In this document: positions 14,642 through 48,840 of the stretch, in pieces
How positions within the stretch are numbered: position 1 is the stretch's first letter
Layout of the letters: every line of letters starts with the position of its first letter
Assembly (NCBI GenBank): GCA_902588255.1
Contig: CACIOK010000003.1
Span: 1-64,000, forward strand
DNA length: 64,000 nt
Direction: 5' to 3'
Source: an uncultured Pelagibacteraceae bacterium
GTDB lineage: Bacteria > Pseudomonadota > Alphaproteobacteria > Pelagibacterales > Pelagibacteraceae
The notes under the pieces: model-generated
What the model saw: the letters and a program-made list of their open reading frames with translations, nothing else
Databases searched by the model: none
What the model was told of the DNA's origin: nothing
Translations under genes and position numbers: made by a program

Positions 14642-14780
14642 ATTTTATATATAACCATTTTCTCACTTTTTTCCACCAATGACAATATGACCCAAATTGA
14701 TCATATAGATTTTTCAAAATTCAAGGATTTTCAAAAAAAATTTCAATGGAAAAAAATTGAGGCTCTGATATTATATTGTT

Positions 14781-14830
14781 TAGATAGTCCTATCTAACCA
14801 TCTTTAGCTCCCGGTTTTTTTAGGACTATC
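14781..14830 (+). promoter_or_regulatory. Candidate leader switch/hairpin upstream of the LysE-family gene
   Basis: Local hairpin tagata-gtcc-tatcta (14781-14796) competes with a perfect 10-bp pairing gatagtccta (14783-14792) / taggactatc (14821-14830), which contains the AGGA RBS-like sequence before the ATG at 14838. Confidence 0.5.
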
Positions 14831-14837
14831 CCAAAAA

Positions 14838-15452
14838 ATGCTCCCCCTAGAATACTTCCTTTTTTTACAAATAATTTTGTTTTTATTTATTACTCCAGGA
14901 ACTCCAAGAGTAGTAATTATTTCATACTCAATGAACTATGGTATTAAAAGTTGTATTTGGACAGCTTTAGGAGATGTAACTGCAAATTTAGTTCAAGGTA
15001 CTTTAGTAATTTTTGTAATCGGATCTTTTTTTTTAGATAATCCAAATTTTTTAAATACATTTAAGTGGATAGGAATATTTTATTTACTATATTTAGCTTA
15101 TGATATTTATAATAGCGCACCTAAAAACATTAATTCCTCAGTAAAAAACGAAAAAAGTATAATTTCTTTCTTTAAAGATGGTTTTCTAGTTGCGGGAACA
15201 AGTCCAAAAGCATGGATGTTTTTTCCATTAATATTTCCTCAGTTTATTGACTTTAATGCAAACTACATCGCACAATTTTTAATATTAATTACAACTTATA
15301 TTGTATTAGATTTTTTATCTTTAATTGGTTACGCTATACTTGCTAATAAATTAATAATTTGGATTAAAGCAAATCCAAGAGTAATAAACACAATTTCAGC
15401 GTGTGTATTAATAATAATCGCTATAATAATTGCAATTACCCAACAATATTAG
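14838..15452 (+). CDS. LysE/RhtB family amino-acid exporter
   Basis: FITPGTPRVVIISYSMNYGIKSCIWTALGDVTANLVQG and transmembrane pattern. Confidence 0.8.
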   Translation: MLPLEYFLFLQIILFLFITPGTPRVVIISYSMNYGIKSCIWTALGDVTANLVQGTLVIFVIGSFFLDNPNFLNTFKWIGIFYLLYLAYDIYNSAPKNINSSVKNEKSIISFFKDGFLVAGTSPKAWMFFPLIFPQFIDFNANYIAQFLILITTYIVLDFLSLIGYAILANKLIIWIKANPRVINTISACVLIIIAIIIAITQQY

Positions 15453-30880: not shown

Positions 30881-31990
30881 CTATTGCTTAGGAAAATAAT
30901 CTTGTAATTTTCCTTCCCTATGAACATCTGTTGTGCTGCAATGTAAACTTCCTCCAAACCCATAAGCTTCCCTAAAATCTACAGGCAAAACTTCCATACC
31001 TAGTTTATCAAGTTGCTCAGCTTGATACACTTCGCTTTTTTCTACACATACTGTTTTTGGATCTAAAACTAAAATATTCATTGATAACCATATTGAATAG
31101 TAAGTAAGAGGAGGTGGAGAATTATGCGCTGGTTGTGCTGCTTCAATAATTTGCCAACCGTTATCCTCAAAAAGTTTTCTTTGCTCTTTAGGAATTTTTC
31201 TTACAGGGTTATTCAATATTAGACCAGGTCTAATGGGAGTAAAAGTTGCATCTATATGAATAGGGTAAGGATCGCCTGGGAAATTTACAGTATGTACACG
31301 GTGATCAGGAAAATGTCTTTTTAACCAATCTATTCCTTTTAAATTTGTAGTAAAACCATGTTGAACAATTAAGTCTTTACCAAACCTTAAAATATCTGCA
31401 GCATCGAAAAGAGGCTCCTCTTCAGTTGTTACAAAATATTTTTTTTCAGCCCATTCTAATCTTTGCTCTATACTTACCTCATCTGATAAATAATTTTTAT
31501 GATAGTCTTTATCTGTTAATCTAGGTTTTGGTGCAGATTCATGTTTCATACCCGGATCTTCAATAAAATATTTTTGCAATAAAGGTCTGTAAGCTAGATA
31601 TTCAAACCATCTACATCGAAAGCTCATCGTTGCTTCTAGCATTTCTTTTCCAACAGTAATAATTACATCTCTCGATGGCATACATCCAAACATATGTTCA
31701 GCTTTCCAATCAGGCGTTGCAATTTTTTCATCAAATTTCAAAGGAGTTGGCCTATCTACTCTGACTCCTCGACTCTCCAATGTTTTTACAAACTTATCTA
31801 AGAGTTCATTTGCTTTATCTATAGAGTCTTGAGTTCTTCTACCATGCTTTCCTTTCATAACTGAGTCAGGAGGAATCTTAACATCCACTGCAGGCTCAGG
31901 AGCGGGTATACAACAATTATCTGCTCTACCAACAATTACATGTTTTAAGGGGTCCCATTCATTCCAACTACTTACAATAGTTTTTTTCAT
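30881..31990 (-). CDS. Amidinotransferase (glycine/inosamine amidinotransferase-like)
   Basis: SSWNEWDPLKHVIVGRAD; FDAADILRFGKDL; PIHIDATFTPIRPG; GGSLHCSTTDV with candidate catalytic Cys. Confidence 0.87.
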   Translation of the reverse strand: MKKTIVSSWNEWDPLKHVIVGRADNCCIPAPEPAVDVKIPPDSVMKGKHGRRTQDSIDKANELLDKFVKTLESRGVRVDRPTPLKFDEKIATPDWKAEHMFGCMPSRDVIITVGKEMLEATMSFRCRWFEYLAYRPLLQKYFIEDPGMKHESAPKPRLTDKDYHKNYLSDEVSIEQRLEWAEKKYFVTTEEEPLFDAADILRFGKDLIVQHGFTTNLKGIDWLKRHFPDHRVHTVNFPGDPYPIHIDATFTPIRPGLILNNPVRKIPKEQRKLFEDNGWQIIEAAQPAHNSPPPLTYYSIWLSMNILVLDPKTVCVEKSEVYQAEQLDKLGMEVLPVDFREAYGFGGSLHCSTTDVHREGKLQDYFPKQ

Positions 31991-36174: not shown

Positions 36175-36738
36175 ATGATAGAGAATAACAAAGAAAAAAT
36201 TAAAACAAGAATAAAATCTGGAATTCAAAAAAATAGACAGATTATAAAAGATAAATTTAATAATTTTTTTGAATGGGTTAAAGGTGCAGACCTAGTAAGC
36301 TTGAAAGAATGTAATACAAATGAAGATCCTGTAAGACCCGAGCTAGATAATGAATTTAGAACAAGCTATGGAAGAAAAATTTATGGCGTTCAATATAAAA
36401 ATGAAATTCATGCAATAATGTGTTTTGCATTTACAAACGAAATTCCTAAATCAGTTGATGAGTTAGATAAATTAAGCAAAGATGCTTTTTTACAAAGTAC
36501 TCTTAGAGGTCAAAAAGTTGGAAAAATAGCCATCGCCTACACAGTTTGGTCTAAAAAAAAAGGAGGAGGTAAATTAATTGTAAAAGAAGTATTTAAAATG
36601 ATTAAAAAATCAAATCATCTTAATAGACTTGTGACACTCTCTCCTCTAACTGATATGGCGACTAAATTTCATTTAAGAAACAAAGCAAAACTTGTAAGAG
36701 TAAATGAAACGACACAAAACTTTGAATATATAAAATAA
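36175..36738 (+). CDS. Conserved-looking hypothetical protein, possibly GNAT-like
   Basis: Full-length ORF with normal codon usage; no firm motif recognised. Confidence 0.4.
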   Translation: MIENNKEKIKTRIKSGIQKNRQIIKDKFNNFFEWVKGADLVSLKECNTNEDPVRPELDNEFRTSYGRKIYGVQYKNEIHAIMCFAFTNEIPKSVDELDKLSKDAFLQSTLRGQKVGKIAIAYTVWSKKKGGGKLIVKEVFKMIKKSNHLNRLVTLSPLTDMATKFHLRNKAKLVRVNETTQNFEYIK

Positions 36739-36746
36739 ATAAACTA

Positions 36747-38327
36747 TTAATTTAATATCAGGTCAGATGCTTTTTCAGCAATCATCAAGGTAGGTGCGTT
36801 TAAGTTTCCACTTGTTATTTCGGGCATAACAGATGCATCTACAACTCTAATATTCTGAAGACCATGAATTTTTAATTCTTGATCTACAACAGCCATTTTA
36901 TCAACTCCCATTTTTAATGTACAGGAAGGATGATATGCCGTTTCAGCTTTAGATCTTATATATTCTTCAAATAACTCATTTGTTTGAACATTGTCGCCTG
37001 GACCAATTTCTTTACCAGCAAAGGGTTTTAATGAATTTTGACCAAGTATTTTACGTGCAACGTGTATGCTTTCTATTGTTTGTTTTAGATCGTCCTCGTG
37101 TTCTAGATAATTAAATTGTATTTTTGGATATTCGTAAGGGTTAGAACTATTTAATGTAATGTGCCCTCTACTCTTTGGATGATTTGGACTTGCGTGTAGT
37201 TGATAACCATGTCTATCAGGCTCAACCAAGCCATGATCAATTACAAATGCTGGAAAAAAATGAAATTGAATATTTGGATATTCTCTTTCTGGAGATGATT
37301 TACAAAATCCACCAGCTTCTAAAAATGAACTGGCACAAGGACCGCCTTTAGTTAAAAACCATTGAATCCCAACTCTCAACATATTCAACTTATTAATATA
37401 AGAATATAAAGTATCACTGGTTCTACATTCTTGCTGAATGTATGTTTCTAAATGATCTTGTAAATTTTTTCCAACACCATCAAGATTATGAATTACCTCA
37501 ATACCTTTATCTTTTAAATGTGAGGAAGGGCCAACTCCAGAAACCATAAGTAATTGTGGAGAATTTATTGAACCAGCGCTTAATATTACTTCCTTATTTG
37601 CGAGCATTTTCTCTTTTTTGTTTTTAATTTTGACTTCAATACCAATTGCTTTTTTTCCATCAAAAATTATTTTTTCTACAAAAGAATCGCTAAACACTTT
37701 TAAATTTTTCCGTTTTTTAGCTGGATTTAAATAATATTTAGAAATACTTGCTCTTTCACCTTTATGAATTGTTACATCATACATTCCAAACCCTTCTTGA
37801 TCCTTGCCATTCATATCTTGATTAATTTTGTAGCCCGCTTCTCCAGCAGATTTAACAAAAGCATTAAACAAAGGGTTTTTATTTTTTGATTGATTGACTG
37901 GCAGTATTCCTGTTCCACCTCGATATTCATTTTGACCTTCAGACCAAGTTTCAATTTTTTTAAAATACGGCAATACTTTTTCGTACGACCAATCTTTTAA
38001 TCCAAAAGAGGCCCATCTTTGATAATCATTTGGATTACCTCTAACATAAACCATTCCATTATGCGCAGAACACCCACCAATCATTTTTCCTCTTGGGCAA
38101 AAAAGTTTTCTATTATTCAAATGTGGTTCTGGTTCAGAGTAATATTTGTAATTATATTTAGGATCATGCATTGTATATAAAATTGCTAGCGGCATATTAA
38201 CTTTCCATATATCGCTTGGTCTACCAGCTTCTATTAGGGCCACATTATATTTCCCATTTGCTGTCAATCTATTTGCAAGCACGCATCCTGCAGTACCTGC
38301 TCCGATTATTATGTAATCAAATTTCAT
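36747..38327 (-). CDS. GMC-family FAD oxidoreductase (choline dehydrogenase-like)
   Basis: FDYIIIGAGTAGCVLANRLTANGKYNVALIEAG; GGCSAHNGMVYVRG; SAGSINSPQLLMVSGVGP; AYHPSCTLKMG. Confidence 0.9.
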   Translation of the reverse strand: MKFDYIIIGAGTAGCVLANRLTANGKYNVALIEAGRPSDIWKVNMPLAILYTMHDPKYNYKYYSEPEPHLNNRKLFCPRGKMIGGCSAHNGMVYVRGNPNDYQRWASFGLKDWSYEKVLPYFKKIETWSEGQNEYRGGTGILPVNQSKNKNPLFNAFVKSAGEAGYKINQDMNGKDQEGFGMYDVTIHKGERASISKYYLNPAKKRKNLKVFSDSFVEKIIFDGKKAIGIEVKIKNKKEKMLANKEVILSAGSINSPQLLMVSGVGPSSHLKDKGIEVIHNLDGVGKNLQDHLETYIQQECRTSDTLYSYINKLNMLRVGIQWFLTKGGPCASSFLEAGGFCKSSPEREYPNIQFHFFPAFVIDHGLVEPDRHGYQLHASPNHPKSRGHITLNSSNPYEYPKIQFNYLEHEDDLKQTIESIHVARKILGQNSLKPFAGKEIGPGDNVQTNELFEEYIRSKAETAYHPSCTLKMGVDKMAVVDQELKIHGLQNIRVVDASVMPEITSGNLNAPTLMIAEKASDLILN

Positions 38328-38863
38328 AAGAGTTGAGAATGAAGTAGTTTTTCGTATTGATTGATTGATTTCATTTTAATATTATTTTTTTTTGCTAATT
38401 CGTCAAATTTTCTTAGTTTAACTGCATCTATAAAAAATTTATTTTTTTCAAAATCCTTACTTTCTTTTTTATTTAGTATTCCACCTTGTAATTCTAAACT
38501 AATTTTAGAAGCTTTAGATAGTTGATTATAATATTTTTTACTTCTAGCTAAATATCTTTTTGCTTTAACATGATATTTAATAGGCTCAACAACATCTTCT
38601 TTGAAGAATTTCTTTAAATATTCATATCCTATTTCCTCGTGCTTTCCGTCTAATTTCTTTTTAACCAAATCACTAGGGTCTTCCAAAATAAAATGTCCAT
38701 AATCATGAAGTAAGCATGCGCATATCAAACTTTTTGATGATTTTTTTTTCTCAGCTATCATTGCAGCCTGTATCATGTGTTCAGACATAGTTACTTTTTC
38801 TCCGATATATAAAGATTTATTATTTATAAAATTAGAAATAATTTTATAGATTATTTTCATCAA
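38324..38863 (-). CDS. PhnZ/TmpB-type HD-domain di-iron oxygenase (phosphonate-associated HD protein)
   Basis: YIGEKVTMSEHMIQAA, LLHDYGHF, GKHEEIGYEYL, IKYHVKAKRYL, LSKASKISLELQGG, DAVKLRKFDE: pattern of the phosphonate-degradation HD oxygenase family. Confidence 0.8.
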   Translation of the reverse strand: MMKIIYKIISNFINNKSLYIGEKVTMSEHMIQAAMIAEKKKSSKSLICACLLHDYGHFILEDPSDLVKKKLDGKHEEIGYEYLKKFFKEDVVEPIKYHVKAKRYLARSKKYYNQLSKASKISLELQGGILNKKESKDFEKNKFFIDAVKLRKFDELAKKNNIKMKSINQYEKLLHSQLL

Positions 38864-38865
38864 TT

Positions 38866-39699
38866 TTAATTTGGACGATCACCTTCGATCGCAATTCGAT
38901 CCATAACCCTTTCATGTCCAAGACCTCTTCCTGGATAAAAATCAGCAATAGCAAAGTGAATAACACTCCTATTATCCCAGATACAAACAGTATTTTCTGT
39001 CCAGGTGAAACGACAAGTTAATTCTAATCTGGCTTGATGTTCAAATATTTTTTTTAAAATCTCATCACTTTCTTTTTTATCTAAACCAATAATATTTTTT
39101 GTATAAGTCCAATTTACATATAATATTTTTTTTCCAGTCTCAGGATGAGTTCTAACCATGGGATGTTCATTAGAATATTCATCATAATTTTTTTTTTTAT
39201 TACCTTCCATTTTTTTATAATTATCCAAAAAAAATTCTGCTCCTAATGAACTATGAATAGCGGTTTTGTCTTTTATTTTATCTTTTATATCTTTGTCTAA
39301 AGTTTCCCAAGCAAGTTCCATATTAGAAAAACAGGTATCTCCTCCAACTGGAGGAATTTTAATTGATTTTAATATTACAGCCTTAGTAGGTTTAGCGTTA
39401 TAACTAACATCGCTGTGCCAATTTTCTCCCCACTGGTTTTGTTCATCTTCAGCTTTAATTATTCTAACAATTTCTGGATATTTTTCTAATCCTTTTACAT
39501 ACGCATGAGTCTCTAAAGGACCAAATTTTTCTGCAAGGGCTATATGTTCGTCTGCATTAATTAATTGGTCTCTAAAGAAAATTACCTTATGTTCTAGTAG
39601 CAAATCGTTAATTTTTTTAAAATTCTCATCTGATGTATCTTTAAGATTTATACCTTTAATTTCTGCACCCAAAGCACCTGAAAGTAGTTTTATTTCCAT
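38866..39699 (-). CDS. TauD/TfdA-family 2-oxoglutarate dioxygenase
   Basis: HKVIFFRDQLINADEHIALAEKFGPLE; WHSDVSYNAKPTKAVIL (HxD); CIWDNRSVIHFAIADFYPGRGLGHERVM. Confidence 0.88.
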   Translation of the reverse strand: MEIKLLSGALGAEIKGINLKDTSDENFKKINDLLLEHKVIFFRDQLINADEHIALAEKFGPLETHAYVKGLEKYPEIVRIIKAEDEQNQWGENWHSDVSYNAKPTKAVILKSIKIPPVGGDTCFSNMELAWETLDKDIKDKIKDKTAIHSSLGAEFFLDNYKKMEGNKKKNYDEYSNEHPMVRTHPETGKKILYVNWTYTKNIIGLDKKESDEILKKIFEHQARLELTCRFTWTENTVCIWDNRSVIHFAIADFYPGRGLGHERVMDRIAIEGDRPN

Positions 39700-40096: not shown

Positions 40097-40567
40097 TTAT
40101 TTTTTTAACTTTGATGAAAATTTTAAGTCTTTATTATTAAAATCGCTTTTATTTTTTTCAATATAATCATCCATTATTTTAATTTTTTCATCTTCGAATT
40201 CAGCAACTTTTCTTTGACCTAAATCAACGTATAAAGCTAAAATTTCTATAGTAGATGCAAGATATTTTTTTTCTTTATGGATCATCTCCATTTTATATAA
40301 AAGCCTTTTTTTATCGTGATCAAAAAAAGTTAAATTAACATCTACTTCATCTCCCTCGCTTACTTCTTGATTGTATGTAATGTGAGACTCTACCACCATA
40401 GTGCTCTTTTTAGTTGTCTTTGCCGAATGTTCTCCCATTTTAAATTTATTCATTAAAACTTCAGCACCATGAACATCAAAAATCAAGACATAATACGCAA
40501 CATTCATGTGATTATTATAGTCTGTCCATTCTTTTATAATTTTTTGAGTTGTTAGATGTACTGACAT
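40097..40567 (-). CDS. Hotdog-fold thioesterase (candidate betainyl-CoA thioesterase)
   Basis: EWTDYNNHMNVAYYVLIFDVHGAEVL YbgC-like active-site motif; divergent from a BKACE gene. Confidence 0.72.
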   Translation of the reverse strand: MSVHLTTQKIIKEWTDYNNHMNVAYYVLIFDVHGAEVLMNKFKMGEHSAKTTKKSTMVVESHITYNQEVSEGDEVDVNLTFFDHDKKRLLYKMEMIHKEKKYLASTIEILALYVDLGQRKVAEFEDEKIKIMDDYIEKNKSDFNNKDLKFSSKLKK

Positions 40568-40616: not shown

Positions 40617-41504
40617 ATGAACAATAAAGTATTTATATCTTGTGCAGTAACTGGTTCTGGAGATACAGCCAGCAAGCATCCTGATTTACCAAAGACTCCT
40701 GAGCAAATTGCAAAGGCTTCAATTGAAGCTGCCAAAGCAGGTGCTGCGATCGCACACATTCATGTCAGAGAGGAAGATGGAAAACCAAGCAGGAGATTAG
40801 AATTATATAAAGAGGTTGTTGATCGTGTAAGATCAAGCGATACAGATGTAGTTTTAAATTTAACAACAGGAATGGGGGGAGACTTAGATATAGGACAAGG
40901 AAAAAATCCTCTAGATTTTGGCCCAATGACAGATATGGCAAATGTAATGGAAAGAATTGCAAATGCAGAACAGTTTTTACCCGAGATATGTACATTGGAT
41001 TGTGGAACTTTAAATTTTGGTGATAGTTCAGTTATTACAGTTAATACACCAAATGATTTAAGAAAAGCCGCTAAAAGGCTACAAGAAATAAATGTCAAAC
41101 CAGAAATAGAAGCTTTCGATTTAGGAAACATGTGGTTTGGGGCTCAATTATATAAAGAAGGATTGCTAAGTGATCCACCAATGTTTCAAATGTGTTTGGG
41201 TATTCCATGGGGAGCGCCAGCAACACCTTTAGCTATGCAGGCTATGAAAGATATAATGCCTAAGGAAGGTATATGGTCTGGTTTTGCAATTTCAAAAAAT
41301 GAGATGCCATTTGTTGCTCAAACTGTAATTATGGGAGGAAATCCAAGAGTAGGCCTTGAAGATAATCTATATTTAGAGAAAGGAAAGTTGGCAACAAATG
41401 CTCAACTAGTTGAAAAAGCAATTAGAATTGTTAATGATCTTGGTGTTTCTATAATGACTCCTGCAGAAACTAGGGAAAAACTTAAATTAAAAAATTACAA
41501 ATAA
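40617..41504 (+). CDS. BKACE (beta-keto acid cleavage enzyme; candidate 3-dehydrocarnitine cleavage)
   Basis: VFISCAVTGSGDTASKHPDLPKTPEQIAKASIEAAKAGAAIAHIHVREEDGKPSRRLELYKEVVDRVRS, NLTTGMGG, EDNLYLEKGKLATN. Confidence 0.9.
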   Translation: MNNKVFISCAVTGSGDTASKHPDLPKTPEQIAKASIEAAKAGAAIAHIHVREEDGKPSRRLELYKEVVDRVRSSDTDVVLNLTTGMGGDLDIGQGKNPLDFGPMTDMANVMERIANAEQFLPEICTLDCGTLNFGDSSVITVNTPNDLRKAAKRLQEINVKPEIEAFDLGNMWFGAQLYKEGLLSDPPMFQMCLGIPWGAPATPLAMQAMKDIMPKEGIWSGFAISKNEMPFVAQTVIMGGNPRVGLEDNLYLEKGKLATNAQLVEKAIRIVNDLGVSIMTPAETREKLKLKNYK

Positions 41505-41507
41505 AAT

Positions 41508-42296
41508 TTAATCTAATCTAATAGCGTTACCATCAACTGCTATAGTTTGACCAGATATTCTTTCTCCATCATTTGAAATTAAAAAGGAACATGTTTTTGC
41601 TATATCTTCTTCATAAATCCAACAATTCATTGATGCCATAGATACAAATTCTTTTTCTATATTTTTTTTAGAAATATTTAAAAAATTTGCTTTATCTCTA
41701 ATAACTCTTACCATTCTATCTCCTTTAATAGTTCCAGGACAAATTGCATTAACTCGAATTTTAAATTTGCCAAGTTCCATCGCTAGAGTTTTTGTTACAC
41801 CTATTACTGCCCATTTACTTGCGGCATAAGGAGATCTTAGAGGAAAACCCATTATGCCTGCACCAGAAGAAAGATTAATTATTGATCCACCCTTATTTTT
41901 TTTAAGCATTGGTATAGCCAATTTTGAAAAATAAAAATGGCTTATAACATTTATTTTTAAAGTTTTTTCCCAATCATCAGACTCAAGCCTTTCTAAATTG
42001 CCAGTAGGTCCAGCAACACCGACATTATTGATTAGTGCATCTATTTTTTTTGTTTTCTTTTTTATTTCCAAAAAAAAATTTGAAACATCATACTCATTAG
42101 AAGCATCACATACATATGCAAATAATCTTTTATTTTTTAGAGGATGTTTTTTTAATTTTGCAATATACTTTTCATTTAAGTCACAAAGGTAAACCGTTGC
42201 TCCTCTTGAAAGACAAACTTTTGCTGTGGCAAGACCAATTCCAGATGCACCAGCAGATATGATTATTTTTTTATTCTTAAGAGACTGATTAGCCAT
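41508..42296 (-). CDS. Short-chain dehydrogenase/reductase
   Basis: IISAGASGIGLATAKVCLSRGATVYLCD; NNVGVAGPTG; SSGAGIMGFPLRSPYAASKWAVIG (Ser/YxxxK). Confidence 0.9.
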   Translation of the reverse strand: MANQSLKNKKIIISAGASGIGLATAKVCLSRGATVYLCDLNEKYIAKLKKHPLKNKRLFAYVCDASNEYDVSNFFLEIKKKTKKIDALINNVGVAGPTGNLERLESDDWEKTLKINVISHFYFSKLAIPMLKKNKGGSIINLSSGAGIMGFPLRSPYAASKWAVIGVTKTLAMELGKFKIRVNAICPGTIKGDRMVRVIRDKANFLNISKKNIEKEFVSMASMNCWIYEEDIAKTCSFLISNDGERISGQTIAVDGNAIRLD

Positions 42297-42299
42297 TAA

Positions 42300-43325
42300 C
42301 TATGACTTAGTTAAAGATTTTTGTAATTCTTTGTTTGTAATATATCCTTTAACATTTCCTTGTTTGTCAATCACTTCACAATTTGCATTATTGCAAACAA
42401 CCTGGGGTAAAAATTCTTCAATAAATTGATCTTCTTGTACTTTAACAAGGTTTGTTTTATCAACGCCATTAGCTTCATTTGCTGGTTTCATTATAATTTT
42501 TGCTTTGATAACTTTAGCTCTATTAACATCTTTTACGAAAGCGGTCACATAATCATCGGCTGGGTTCATTATAATATCAACAGGTGTACCTACTTGAACT
42601 AATTTTCCGCCATTTAAAATTCCTATATGATCACCTAATCTCAAGGATTCATCTAAATCATGCGTTATAAAAACTATTGTTTTTTTTAGTTCGCTTTGTA
42701 AGTCCATTAATTGTTTTTGCATGTCACTTCTAATAAGAGGATCTAATGCAGAAAATGCTTCATCCATTAACATTATATCTGTATTTGTAGCCAAAGCTCT
42801 TGCTAAGCCGACTCTTTGTTGCATTCCTCCAGATAATTGATTTGGATATTGATGTTCAAATCCATTTAAACCAACTGCTTCAATTTTTTCCATTGCAGTT
42901 TTGTTTCTTTCTTCTGGTTTTTGACCTTGAACTTCAAGTCCATATCCAACATTTTCTAAAACTGTTTTATGTGGAAATAAACCAAATCTTTGAAACACCA
43001 TACTCATTTTATGTCTTCTGAACTCAATTAATTGTTTTTGATCAAGATTCATAACATTTGTTCCCTCGACAGAAACTTCTCCTGATGTTGGATCTATTAA
43101 TCTATTAATATGACGAATAAGCGTAGATTTTCCTGAGCCAGATAAGCCCATGCAAACAAAGGTTTCTCCTTCTTCGATAGATAAAGATACATTATCTAAA
43201 CCAATAGTGTGTCCTGTTTTTTCTAATACTTCTTCTTTTGTTGCACCATCTTTAACCATTGGAAGTACTTTTGAAGGCTGATCACCAAAAATTTTATATA
43301 CGTTTTTTATTTCAATTTTGCTCAT
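42300..43325 (-). CDS. proV: Glycine betaine/proline-type ABC ATP-binding protein (ProV/OpuAA-like)
   Basis: IFGDQPSKVLPMVKDGATKEEVLEKTGHTIGLDNVSLSIEEGETFVCMGLSGSGKSTLIRHINRLI. Confidence 0.9.
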   Translation of the reverse strand: MSKIEIKNVYKIFGDQPSKVLPMVKDGATKEEVLEKTGHTIGLDNVSLSIEEGETFVCMGLSGSGKSTLIRHINRLIDPTSGEVSVEGTNVMNLDQKQLIEFRRHKMSMVFQRFGLFPHKTVLENVGYGLEVQGQKPEERNKTAMEKIEAVGLNGFEHQYPNQLSGGMQQRVGLARALATNTDIMLMDEAFSALDPLIRSDMQKQLMDLQSELKKTIVFITHDLDESLRLGDHIGILNGGKLVQVGTPVDIIMNPADDYVTAFVKDVNRAKVIKAKIIMKPANEANGVDKTNLVKVQEDQFIEEFLPQVVCNNANCEVIDKQGNVKGYITNKELQKSLTKS

Positions 43326-43332
43326 ATTTTTT

Positions 43333-44349
43333 TTATAAAATTAATTTTTTTTTATTGTGTGTTCTTGCTTGAATTTTTTCACCATAAGATTGAGTAATTC
43401 GATCGAATATAATAGCTAGCAATACAATTGCAATACCTGCTTCTGTAGCCATACCAACGTTTAATTGTTGTAAACCAAGCAATACTTCATCACCAATTCC
43501 TCTTGTGCCTATCATTGATGCAATTACTACCATTGCTAATGACATCATTGTACATTGGTTGACACCTTGCATTATGTTGGGTAATGCCAATGGCAATTGT
43601 ACTCCCCATAATTTTTGTTTTTTACTTGCACCAAAAGCTTCTGCTGCTTCAACGACTTCTTTATCAACCAATCTAATTCCAAGGTCTGTTAATCTTATTA
43701 AAGGAGGAACAGCATAAACAAATATAGCAAATATTGCTGGAACTGCACCCAAACCAAATAATAATATTCCTGGAATTAAATAACAAAAACTAGGAATAGT
43801 TTGCATTAAATCTAAAATCGGTAGTATAGCATTTCTTACTTTTTTGTTTCTTGCCATTAAAATTCCTACAGGAATACCAATAATTAGACAAAGCAACATT
43901 CCTATAACTACTATACAAGTTGTCATTATACATTTATCCCAATATCTAGGACTTAGAAAACCAAGAAAGAAAACACAAAATGCAACCATAATTGTTGTAC
44001 CAGTATTTCTTCCGCTTACAAAATAACATAAAGCAATTACCGATATCATTAATACTGGCCAAGGTAATCCGACCATAAAATTTTTCATATCTGTATAAAG
44101 GCCAAGTAGGAAATTATTAATTCCTTCAAAAAACATTCCATATTCTCTTATAAGCTTATCAAATCCATCATTTAAGAAGGGCATTAATGGAAGGTCTAGC
44201 CATTTAGGCCAGTTTCCTAACCATGAAAAATCTGTAAATAAAACTGAAACACTTTCAGGTCTATATTTTGAGGTCGTATACGCAACAACAACCATAGCAA
44301 TAAAAGCTATCAAATAAACTAAATTGAAATATTTTTTATACTTCTCCAT
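43333..44349 (-). CDS. proW: Glycine betaine/proline-type ABC permease (ProW-like)
   Basis: IPVGILMARNKKVRNAILPILDLMQTIPSFCYLIPGILLFGLG; VQLPLALPNIMQGVNQCTMMSLAMVVIASMIG. Confidence 0.9.
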   Translation of the reverse strand: MEKYKKYFNLVYLIAFIAMVVVAYTTSKYRPESVSVLFTDFSWLGNWPKWLDLPLMPFLNDGFDKLIREYGMFFEGINNFLLGLYTDMKNFMVGLPWPVLMISVIALCYFVSGRNTGTTIMVAFCVFFLGFLSPRYWDKCIMTTCIVVIGMLLCLIIGIPVGILMARNKKVRNAILPILDLMQTIPSFCYLIPGILLFGLGAVPAIFAIFVYAVPPLIRLTDLGIRLVDKEVVEAAEAFGASKKQKLWGVQLPLALPNIMQGVNQCTMMSLAMVVIASMIGTRGIGDEVLLGLQQLNVGMATEAGIAIVLLAIIFDRITQSYGEKIQARTHNKKKLIL

Positions 44350-44361
44350 TAATACTTCCCT

Positions 44362-44392
44362 AAAAAAGCTAAGAGCCCTCGCGGGCTCTTAG
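44362..44392 (-). terminator. Terminator/attenuator between proX-like and proW-like genes
   Basis: Minus strand: ctaagagccc-gcga-gggctcttag followed by cTTTTTT. Confidence 0.88.
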
Positions 44393-44412
44393 TTTTAATA
44401 TTTGTTTTAAAA

Positions 44413-45438
44413 TTAAAGCGAAGCTTTAACTTTTTTTGCAACATCTGCAGGAACCCATTTAGTCCAAGAGCTAGACCCTTGTAAAAAGTTCTTAGCAGTT
44501 GCTTCCATATCTCCACCTGATTCATCCATGTAAAAAGCAAGAGATTTGTTCACTTCAGCAGTCGGCAAAGTGTATGCTTTTACAAAGTCAATAACTGGTT
44601 TATTTGCTGGATTGTTAGCAAAAGTAGTTGATGCAGATTTTGTCAAAGCCATATCTACGTATGCACTTGCACAAGTTTTTGTGTATGCATCTGGGCCATC
44701 AGCTTTAATCTTCTCAACAACTGCCATCATTTCTGTCCAGCATTTATTTTCATAGGCAGGTTCTTTAAGTTGAACTAAATCAACTTTTCCCATCAAACCT
44801 GTTGGTGTCCAGTAGTAAGAAAATACTGGCTTGCCTTTTTTGAATGCACCTGCAATAGCCGCATCTAAAGCACCACCAGATCCTGGATCAAAGTTAGTAT
44901 AGTATTTATCTAGACCATAAACTTTGTGCTTAACTAAGTTAATAGTGTAGCAAGTCCATCCAGAAATACAGCTTGTCATTCTACCTTTTCCTGGAGCTTC
45001 AGGGTCAGCAAATAATTTTGCTATTTCTGGCTTCATCATGTCTTCAACACTTACTAAACCATATTTGTCTGCTGTTGGTTTATCTACATAAAATCCTTGA
45101 GTAGATGATGGAGTGTTAACTCCTAGCTCAACAATTTTACCTGCTGCTACAGCTTCCTCATGCATTTGAACAATATTATCTCTCCATACCTCAGTTATAA
45201 TATCAAGCTGTTGGTCGTAATGAGCAGCCATAATCGGACTAGTACTACCTTTTGTTACTTCAACCTGGCAGCCATATCCTTTTTCAAGAATATAACCAAC
45301 GATTGCAGTGTGAACGTTTGCACTGTCCCAGTCAAAATCTCCCAAGTGTACTTTGCAAGCAGCATTAGCACTTGTTGTGCCTAAAGACGTTACTGCTATA
45401 AAAGCTATTGAAAGAAATATTTTTTTAAGAAATCTCAT
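44413..45438 (-). CDS. proX: Glycine betaine/choline/carnitine-type substrate-binding protein (ProX/OpuAC-like)
   Basis: Signal peptide; VHLGDFDWDSANVHTAIVGYILEKGYGCQVEVTKGSTSPIM; VFSYYWTPTGLMGKVDLVQLKEP. Confidence 0.88.
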   Translation of the reverse strand: MRFLKKIFLSIAFIAVTSLGTTSANAACKVHLGDFDWDSANVHTAIVGYILEKGYGCQVEVTKGSTSPIMAAHYDQQLDIITEVWRDNIVQMHEEAVAAGKIVELGVNTPSSTQGFYVDKPTADKYGLVSVEDMMKPEIAKLFADPEAPGKGRMTSCISGWTCYTINLVKHKVYGLDKYYTNFDPGSGGALDAAIAGAFKKGKPVFSYYWTPTGLMGKVDLVQLKEPAYENKCWTEMMAVVEKIKADGPDAYTKTCASAYVDMALTKSASTTFANNPANKPVIDFVKAYTLPTAEVNKSLAFYMDESGGDMEATAKNFLQGSSSWTKWVPADVAKKVKASL

Positions 45439-45615
45439 GAATTTCCCCCTTGTGTTAAGTTTAAACTTGGAGCATTAAAACTTGATAAGAAGAAAAACAC
45501 AACCTTAATTAAGTTTTATATAGATCAATAAATCCTTAAAAAAAGTATTTAAATTGCTTAGATTCAATTATAAATTGAATTGAAAATTAAATTAAATAAA
45601 ATAACAATTGTTAAT

Positions 45616-46743
45616 ATGTCGGTAGAAATTTCAAAAGTTTCAAAAAATGGCTCAGCACTGAATATTGAGTGGAGTGATGGAGAAAAAAGTAATTTTAATT
45701 TTTTATGGCTAAGAGACAATTGCCCGACAGCACACGATAAAGACTCTAGACATAGAATGTTTAATATACTCGAAGTTTCAACAAATATTGAACCAAAGAC
45801 ATATAAGGTAAACGATGAGGGAAAATTAGAAATAGCTTGGAGTGAAGGAAACCATATCAGTTTATATGAACAAGCATGGCTCAGAAAAAATTGTTACACT
45901 ATAAATAATAATAAAAAATATGTTTCTCCTTATCATTTATGGGGTAGCTCTCTACAAGAAAATTTAAAATCTATTAGTATTGAACATGATGAAATTATAA
46001 ATTCAGATGAAGGCCTTATTAAGTGGTTAGAACTTTTACATCATGAAGGAATTGCAATTGTAAAAAATACACCAATTGAAAAAGAGTCTGCCTTTCCAGT
46101 TTTAAATAGAATAAGTCATACAAGAGAAACTTTTTTTAAAACACCATTTGAAGTTATAAATGTTCCAAAACCAAATAATTCCGCATATACGGCGCACGCT
46201 CTTAGAAATCATATGGACTTACCTTGGTTTGAAAATCCTCCAGGTTATCAATTTCTTCATTGCTTAATAAATTCTACAGAAGGCGGCAATTCTTCAGCTG
46301 TAGATGCTTTTGCTGTTGCTGATTATTTGAGGAAAAATGAAAAAAAAATTTTTGAAACTTTAGTAAATGTTCCCCTTAAATTTAGAGACAAAGATTATAC
46401 ACAAGATGCACATAGAAGCTTTTACGGATCAGCAATTTCTTTAACTAAAGATGGCGATTATAACGATATAAGATTTAGTGTTGCAACTATGGATGCACTA
46501 GATTGTCATCCTGACCTTATGGATAAAGTGTATAAAGCTCATCATAGATTTGGAAATCTTTTACACGATGATAGATTCCAAATAAAATTTAGACTTGAAC
46601 CGGGAGATATTTTTTCTTTTAACAATAGAAGGATTTTACATGGTAGAACAGAATTTAATCCAAATTCAGGGCATAGACATTTGCAGGGATACTATATGGA
46701 CCGTGATGAAATTATTGGAAGATTAAATTATTTAAAAAAGTAA
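45616..46743 (+). CDS. Gamma-butyrobetaine hydroxylase/TmpA-like 2OG dioxygenase
   Basis: N-terminal LNIEWSDGEKSNFNFLWLRDNCPTAHD (GBBH-like N domain); RNHMDLPWFENPPGYQFLHCLINSTEGGNSSAVDAFAVA; FNNRRILHGR. Start likely 45616 (tracked from TTG at 45580). Confidence 0.88.
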   Translation: MSVEISKVSKNGSALNIEWSDGEKSNFNFLWLRDNCPTAHDKDSRHRMFNILEVSTNIEPKTYKVNDEGKLEIAWSEGNHISLYEQAWLRKNCYTINNNKKYVSPYHLWGSSLQENLKSISIEHDEIINSDEGLIKWLELLHHEGIAIVKNTPIEKESAFPVLNRISHTRETFFKTPFEVINVPKPNNSAYTAHALRNHMDLPWFENPPGYQFLHCLINSTEGGNSSAVDAFAVADYLRKNEKKIFETLVNVPLKFRDKDYTQDAHRSFYGSAISLTKDGDYNDIRFSVATMDALDCHPDLMDKVYKAHHRFGNLLHDDRFQIKFRLEPGDIFSFNNRRILHGRTEFNPNSGHRHLQGYYMDRDEIIGRLNYLKK

Positions 46744-47409: not shown

Positions 47410-48840
47410 CTATTTCCAACCTGTCACTGTTTTTATTTCTAAATATTCTTCAAGACCCCAATTGCCACCTTCTCGTCCATTTCCAGATTGTCTATATCCT
47501 CCAAATGGGGTTCCGGGATCTGCGCCATTACCATTTATATAAACAATTCCCGATCTTAATTTTTTTGCAACTCTTTTAGCTTTCTCTTTATCATCTGTTT
47601 GCAAATAATTTCCTAGGCCATATTCAGTTTCGTTAGTAATTGATATTGCTTCCTCTTCTGTTTCAAATGGAATTATTGAAAGAACTGGTCCGAAGATTTC
47701 TTTTTTAGCAATTTGCATGTTGTTTGTAACATTTGTGAATAAAGTTGGTTTAATAAAATAACCTTTATCCAAACCACTTGGAAGTTCTGGACCACCTGCA
47801 GCAAGCGTTGCTCCTTCACTTATTCCATCTTTAATTAAATTGATTATTTTATCGTACTGAACTTTTGAAACTACCGGTCCTATATGATCACCTTTTTTTG
47901 ATGCAATATCTACTTTAATTTTATTTGCTTCATCAACTGCTTCTTTAATAGCTCTTTCATAAATTGATTTTTCAACAAGCATTCTAGTTGGTGCATCACA
48001 TGATTGGCCAGAATTACTCATTACATTTCTAATCCCATCCCTAACTGCATTAGCGTAAGAATCTGCAAAAACTATATTTCCCCCTTTACCTCCCAGTTCT
48101 AAACAAACTCTTTTAATTGTATTGGCAGCATTTTTTGTAATTAATTTTCCTGCCCTTGTTGATCCTGTAAAAGAAACCATATCAATGTCAGAATGACCAG
48201 ATATTTGCGAACCAACCCCATCTCCATCTCCATTAACTAAATTAAAAACTCCTGCAGGAAAACCAGCTTCATCTATCATTTCAGTAAACAACATTGCTGA
48301 GATAGGAGCAATTTCAGATGGTTTAAGTATCATTGTACAACCAGTTGCAAATGCTGGAATTACTTTTAATGCTATTTGATTGATGGGCCAATTCCAGGGA
48401 GTGATTAGACCACAAACTCCAATGGGCTCACGAGCTATATAGTTATTAGAATTAGAATTGAAATATTCTTCGAATTTAAACTCTTTAAGTCTTAATATGA
48501 AATCTTCTAAATGAGCTTGTCCTGATGCTGTATGTGTTGATGTTGCAAAATCAATAGGAGACCCCATCTCATTTGACATAGCTTCAGCCATCTCGTTAAA
48601 TCTTTTTTTATAAGTTGCTAATAATTTTTCCAGAAGATTTATTCTTTCTTCTTTTGTGGTTTCTTTCCAAGTAGCAAACGCATTTTTTGCTGCTTTTACT
48701 GCAGCATCAGTATCTTCTTTTGAGCCAAGGGAAATAGTTGCAAAAGCTTCTTCGTTAGAAGGATTAATTACTTCTAGGTCATTTGGCTTAGTAGGTTTAA
48801 CCCATTTACCGTTAATATAAAAATTTCTTTTATCAATCAT
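47410..48840 (-). CDS. Aldehyde dehydrogenase
   Basis: CLELGGKGGNIVF, NSGQSCDAPTRMLVE, KEIFGPVLSIIPF, PFGGYRQSGNGRE. Confidence 0.92.
   Translation of the reverse strand: MIDKRNFYINGKWVKPTKPNDLEVINPSNEEAFATISLGSKEDTDAAVKAAKNAFATWKETTKEERINLLEKLLATYKKRFNEMAEAMSNEMGSPIDFATSTHTASGQAHLEDFILRLKEFKFEEYFNSNSNNYIAREPIGVCGLITPWNWPINQIALKVIPAFATGCTMILKPSEIAPISAMLFTEMIDEAGFPAGVFNLVNGDGDGVGSQISGHSDIDMVSFTGSTRAGKLITKNAANTIKRVCLELGGKGGNIVFADSYANAVRDGIRNVMSNSGQSCDAPTRMLVEKSIYERAIKEAVDEANKIKVDIASKKGDHIGPVVSKVQYDKIINLIKDGISEGATLAAGGPELPSGLDKGYFIKPTLFTNVTNNMQIAKKEIFGPVLSIIPFETEEEAISITNETEYGLGNYLQTDDKEKAKRVAKKLRSGIVYINGNGADPGTPFGGYRQSGNGREGGNWGLEEYLEIKTVTGWK

Follow-up and report, generated by a model that had tools for sequence, protein, structure and literature searches.

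Results

The genes of the locus

The window, that is, the whole stretch of 64,000 nucleotides analyzed here, belongs to contig C3 of a Pelagibacteraceae (SAR11) genome that is 73% complete, and the public single-cell contig AG-430-G21 is near-identical to that contig. Three tandem genes lie on the minus strand, exactly where the first-pass annotation had placed them: a dioxygenase gene (TauD, 39699-38866), a gene for an HD-domain protein (HD, 38863-38324) and a GMC oxidoreductase gene (GMC, 38327-36747), which overlaps the HD gene by 4 bp (ATGA). The HD protein has 179 aa when counted from a TTG start; since the next codon is an ATG and most relatives have 178 aa, translation likely begins at this ATG (38860). 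The dN/dS ratios are low (0.09-0.31 over 21 pairs for HD, 0.04-0.06 for TauD and 0.05-0.07 for GMC), which, as far as substitution patterns can tell, shows that all three are protein genes under purifying selection.

The surrounding genes bear out the quaternary-amine context that had been supposed for this operon. A thioesterase of the carnitine pathway type (40097-40567, minus strand) was assigned by PF13279, by its resemblance to the C-terminal portion of PRK07531, a fusion model for carnitine 3-dehydrogenase, and by synteny; it is often found directly upstream of the TauD, HD and GMC run in relatives. It is followed by a beta-keto acid cleavage enzyme (BKACE; 40617-41504, plus strand; PF05853, 311 bits) and by a short-chain dehydrogenase (SDR; 41508-42296, minus strand; PF13561), which is kept in the locus among relatives. 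The carnitine pathway runs through a BKACE and a thioesterase. Next to these genes lies a ProVWX-type (ProU-like) quaternary-amine ABC importer (42300-45438, minus strand), a candidate uptake route that is kept in relatives; its ProX-like binding protein (44413-45438) matches PF04069, and its ATPase and permease ORFs were assigned from sequence without a family search. A gamma-butyrobetaine-dioxygenase-like protein (45580-46743, plus strand) was considered as a TmpA and rejected, as the gamma-butyrobetaine dioxygenase model fits it better (TIGR02409, 314 bits, vs. TmpA, 264 bits, both under the cut-off). The set is completed by an aldehyde dehydrogenase of the betaine-aldehyde/aminobutyraldehyde type (47410-48840, minus strand; TIGR01804, 422 bits, under the cut-off), and ectoine-type genes are found farther out. 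A promoter scan of the operon vicinity gave no excess over shuffled sequences, and the Rfam scan of the window found no riboswitch. The same scan placed an rhtB sRNA at 14765-14843 (75 bits). Two further ORFs of the window, 30881-31990 (369 aa) and 36175-36738 (187 aa), match no Pfam family, yet are conserved in relatives.

The HD protein

The motifs quoted for the HD protein in the first-pass annotation are present, and its assignment there to the PhnZ/TmpB-type HD oxygenases is upheld by ligands, YxxE loop, fold and the gene context of its relatives. The metal ligands H29, H53, D54, H75, H98 and D154 are invariant in all 18 SAR11 proteins of its group (group A), so that the loss of a di-iron ligand, which would have spoken against the assignment, is not seen on alignment. 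Y19 and E22 of the YxxE gating loop (PMC8177086) are equally invariant, and the pocket residues H57, K102, S116, S119, Q126 and R151 are kept in 18 of 18 proteins. The wider alignment of 26 members shows the same conservation of ligands, YxxE loop and remaining family-invariant residues, except that the last Asp is nearly invariant there.

The profile scores, 174.4 bits with the mixed-valent di-iron HD oxygenase model TIGR03276, 157 bits with the TmpB equivalog NF049941 and 129 bits with the PhnZ1 (methylphosphonate) model, all stay below the curated cut-offs, which are 214.6 bits for TIGR03276 and 300 bits for NF049941. The cut-off of TIGR03276 is strict, because a group C relative located beside phnCDE misses it too (201 bits), and group B proteins that adjoin a true TmpA reach only 154-158 bits with the TmpB model. 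Among PDB sequences, the HD protein matches TmpB with 111 bits and PhnZ with 94 bits. Its AF2 model (pLDDT 94) has as its best Foldseek match TmpB, the (R)-1-hydroxy-2-trimethylaminoethylphosphonate oxygenase of Leisingera caerulea (6npa; TM 0.89); 4n6w likewise gives 0.89, and the TmpB and PhnZ structures together span 0.87-0.89. All ten matches with E<0.001 are TmpB or PhnZ, with TmpB first, and MIOX appears only at E 0.9. The residues near the active site of group A are closer to TmpB than to PhnZ, but the same positions vary among TmpA-linked proteins; as a marker of TmpB versus PhnZ substrates these residues are suggestive only. Our best reading is that the HD protein is a phosphonate-cleaving di-iron oxygenase closest to TmpB.

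SAR11 HD proteins fall into at least three groups with different contexts. Group A overlaps GMC and has group B as its sister (support 100/99). In the HD tree, where TmpB and PhnZ are represented, as in the alignment, by the matched stretches of PDB chains and not by full chains, group A and TmpB 6npa are not grouped together, although the deep branches are weak. Two group B members adjoin a true TmpA (532-542 bits vs. a cut-off of 400), the group C paralogue lies near phnCDE and the C-P lyase protein PhnJ, and HD relatives from other Alphaproteobacteria adjoin TmpA (nine loci), PhnM, PhnW and PhnY*. Within the group C set (L039-L041), phnCDE and arsenate-reductase-like genes are located near the HD gene in L040 and, as gene order indicates, in L039, and PhnJ is found near group C HD genes in G035 and G140. 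SAR11 genomes also harbor a second pairing of a 2OG oxygenase with an HD protein: the gene for a divergent HD protein (184 aa, with an apparent H..HD..H..H..D arrangement and no YxxE seen) is overlapped by a TmpA-like gene, with a homocysteine methyltransferase close by (L065:11224-12875, L157:4276-5927, L158:6877-8528, L159:10050-11701, L160:5429-7077 and L161:4270-5921); the TmpA-like protein of the L065 pair scores 334 bits with TmpA, under the cut-off. In L042-L045 this divergent family lies between GATase/phosphoribosyltransferase-like and glutamate-cysteine-ligase-like genes (flanking families checked in L044 only), and no phosphonate gene was seen there.

The GMC and TauD proteins

The GMC protein scores 740 bits with the choline dehydrogenase subfamily model NF002550 (cut-off 605) and 675 bits with the betA equivalog TIGR01810 (cut-off 732), and its closest PDB entry is an oxygen-dependent choline dehydrogenase (514 bits). 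It is thus a likely choline dehydrogenase that resembles BetA while remaining under the equivalog cut-off. The other GMC protein found in the genome reaches 588 bits, which makes the protein of the locus the stronger of these two candidates for a choline dehydrogenase.

The TauD protein is an Fe(II)/2-oxoglutarate dioxygenase of the TauD/RdpA type. It matches PF02668 with 197 bits and the taurine dioxygenase model with 221 bits, under the cut-off of 313, and its closest PDB entry is RdpA. Residues H95, D97, H248, R264 and R268 are invariant in 25 orthologues. The TmpA/gamma-butyrobetaine dioxygenases share PF02668 with this protein; however, it matched neither the TmpA nor the PhnY models, only those of PF02668, taurine dioxygenase, ScoE and PtlD. 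PhnY itself is a PhyH-family enzyme. Outside SAR11 the best relative has 45% identity and lies among generic TauDs in an uninformative context. The AF2 model had a mean pLDDT of 54 and was left out of the structural comparison.

Presence, absence and gene order

Among 197 genomes of the family we count GMC in 38, TauD in 27, group A HD in 18 and true TmpA in 6, these being raw co-occurrence counts that include contig-edge fragments and ignore kinship. GMC is present in every TauD genome (27/27) and every group A HD genome (18/18, always adjacent). The first-pass annotation had regarded GMC as an addition to a phn-type pair; of the three genes, however, GMC occurs in the largest number of genomes, and HD is the add-on. 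TauD-HD-GMC is the commonest arrangement, with TauD found in 16 of the 18 HD genomes. The fixed TauD-HD pair proposed earlier does not stand, as 7 of the 27 TauD genomes, all at least 94% complete (G105, G127, G152, G170, G178, G180 and G190), yielded no PhnZ/TmpB-type HD; the short HD match in G180 (E 8.5e-4) is a distant paralogue. In ten genomes TauD directly adjoins GMC without HD (G035, G057, G105, G127, G152, G166, G170, G180, G190 and G130, the last read only up to the contig end). Conversely, G069 (99% complete) and G123 (97%) have HD-GMC without TauD, and neither TauD nor a true TmpA was found in these two genomes. In G123 a gamma-butyrobetaine dioxygenase gene is apparently broken (L061:1019-2142).

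The slot between thioesterase and GMC occurs in four states: empty (G101, G109, G158), HD only (G069, G123), TauD only (G127, G152, G166) and TauD plus HD (G043, G088, G196), which require 9 changes on the GMC tree. A clean insertion or deletion of HD is seen between L060 (HD) and L172 (empty), with 92-93% identity on both sides. On the TauD tree HD was gained or lost at least three times, and no residue was found that distinguishes HD-linked from HD-free TauDs. Class II aldolase-like and RipC/CitE-like lyase genes come and go in the same carnitine locus (L053:11491-12213, L060:10727-11593, L077:9788-11372), another sign of its gene-by-gene turnover.

No tmpA lies beside the HD gene of the window. 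A true TmpA occurs only in genomes with a group A or B HD, and in four of the six (G073, G092, G116 and G122) group A is the sole PhnZ/TmpB-type HD found, although three of these are 55-63% and one 76% complete and a second HD may be missed. By this co-occurrence, which comes from one genus and mostly incomplete genomes, the group A protein plausibly acts as TmpB there. G073 has a disrupted TauD reading frame but still carries HD and a true TmpA. Most group A genomes also carry a TmpA-like paralogue.

As had been noted for the operon, no C-P lyase or phn transporter is visible: a PhnD-type binding protein and PhnJ were not found in the window genome (73% complete), and closed G043 (99%) and near-complete G083, G088, G069 and G123 yielded neither PhnJ nor any PhnD-type protein above its curated cut-off. 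The ProU-like importer would therefore be the likely entry route.

Discussion

Our data indicate that a locus forming glycine betaine may carry HD and TauD separately, each as an optional gene, and that the two are not a fixed PhnYZ/TmpAB pair. The HD protein shares with TmpB the fold, the six iron ligands, the YxxE loop and the KRYL and LxLQGG motifs at about 36% identity, yet it scores under the curated level, its neighbour is not a TmpA and its gene overlaps GMC in a carnitine/betaine locus. PhnZ, the (R)-2-amino-1-hydroxyethylphosphonate oxygenase (4mln, 4n71), is alike in fold, ligands and phosphonate-site residues; however, the sequence score is lower than with TmpB, and the locus has neither an adjacent PhnY nor a primary-amine context. 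Glycine betaine is the product of TmpB (PMC10574752) and the metabolite on which the routes of such a locus converge; SAR11 is a glycine auxotroph in which glycine betaine can replace glycine (PMC12478193).

We consider it probable that the HD protein is a TmpB/PhnZ-type C-P cleaver, optional in the glycine-betaine locus, which acts on an alpha-hydroxylated 2-aminoethylphosphonate, probably one with N-methyl groups. The most likely substrate would be 1-hydroxy-2-(trimethylammonio)ethylphosphonate, and cleavage of its C-P bond would yield phosphate and glycine betaine. Glycine betaine would then be formed in the locus from carnitine via BKACE and thioesterase, from choline via GMC and an aldehyde dehydrogenase, and from the phosphonate via HD. 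The simplest view of GMC is that its role is independent of HD and that it would convert choline to betaine aldehyde or betaine. The hydroxylated substrate may be supplied by a 2OG hydroxylase of the genome, a true TmpA in some and the neighbouring TauD or the TmpA-like paralogue in others; alternatively, the hydroxyphosphonate may come straight from the environment through the ProU-like importer. This reading is supported because the ligands and the pocket are kept, the fold is that of TmpB/PhnZ and relatives lie beside TmpA, PhnM, PhnW, PhnY* and phnCDE. The earlier guess of a methylated aminoethylphosphonate gains strength from the TmpA-linked relatives and from betaine-demethylation-type genes: L048 and L059 each have an unbroken series of genes on one strand that comprises a homocysteine methyltransferase, an FAD-GcvT dehydrogenase, TauD, HD and GMC. 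The substrate itself we infer from this context. We count against our reading the lack of a canonical phosphonate transporter in near-complete group A genomes, the missed TIGR03276 and TmpB cut-offs, the position of group A outside 6npa, the two near-complete HD-GMC genomes with neither TauD nor true TmpA, the restriction of the TmpA link to one genus and the variability of the TmpB-like residues among TmpA-linked proteins.

One could argue that TauD and HD together are a two-enzyme pathway dedicated to phosphonates, with TauD as the PhnY/TmpA hydroxylase and GMC as an accessory, as the first-pass annotation had it. Such a pathway would agree with the commonest arrangement, with the presence of TauD in nearly all group A genomes (16/18) and with its intact catalytic residues. 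However, TauD is of the taurine/RdpA type and adjoins GMC without HD in ten genomes, seven TauD genomes are devoid of any PhnZ/TmpB-type HD, two HD genomes lack TauD, no residue marks the HD-linked TauDs, HD came and went at least three times on their tree, and G073 retains HD and a true TmpA although its TauD frame is broken. On co-occurrence and synteny we reject TauD as an obligate partner of HD, and we regard the dedicated pathway as unlikely. From TauD-GMC without HD, HD-GMC without TauD, the four slot states and the absence of a TauD residue that tracks HD, it follows that TauD has an HD-independent role and that HD is optional. A TauD gene adjoining an HD gene does not by itself make a PhnYZ pair.

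Rather less credit can be given to the notion that the HD protein is PhnZ proper, turning 2-AEP into glycine and phosphate, or of the methylphosphonate type, with the betaine context being incidental. SAR11, being auxotrophic for glycine, would profit from this product too, a primary amine could be bound by E22 of the YxxE loop, and a published count of 2-AEP phnZ includes Pelagibacterales HDs (PMC9381506). Against this, sequence comparison favours TmpB, as does the fold score by a narrow margin, the sister group is linked to TmpA, and almost all group A genomes read show the same quaternary-amine locus. It is very doubtful that the HD protein cleaves the C-C bond of a phosphorus-free hydroxylated quaternary amine, like myo-inositol oxygenase, as an extra betaine-forming route: the quaternary-amine context, the missing phosphonate transporter and C-P lyase and the scores under the phosphonate-family cut-offs would suit it, but the pocket residues common to all phosphonate-linked relatives are invariant, the fold is far nearer to TmpB/PhnZ than to MIOX, and sister group B members are TmpA-linked. 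There is, finally, a slim chance that TauD places a hydroxyl group on C1 of quaternary-amine acids with two carbons regardless of the leaving group, and that HD is an upgrade which adds phosphate harvest to the operon. With a sulfonate of the trimethyltaurine type as substrate, the product would then collapse to betaine aldehyde, on which GMC and the aldehyde dehydrogenase would act, and TauD-GMC without HD would be accounted for; the hydroxylated phosphonate analogue would be stable and need HD. If this were true, TauD would be a further, separately recruited type of hydroxylase serving the PhnZ/TmpB reaction.

Published estimates of phnZ at the ocean surface disagree widely: one survey finds phnZ in about 20% of bacteria, with Pelagibacterales providing 45% of marine phnZ, read as 2-AEP catabolism, and another puts 2-AEP-type phnZ at <0.01% and tmpB- or G. 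maris-type at <1% (PMC9381506, PMC8316502, PMC10574752). With our reading of the HD protein as a TmpB/PhnZ-type C-P cleaver, the existence of at least three SAR11 HD groups and the placement of group A in a glycine-betaine locus without phn transporters suggest that part of the SAR11 phnZ signal may reflect the metabolism of trimethyl-AEP rather than that of 2-AEP.
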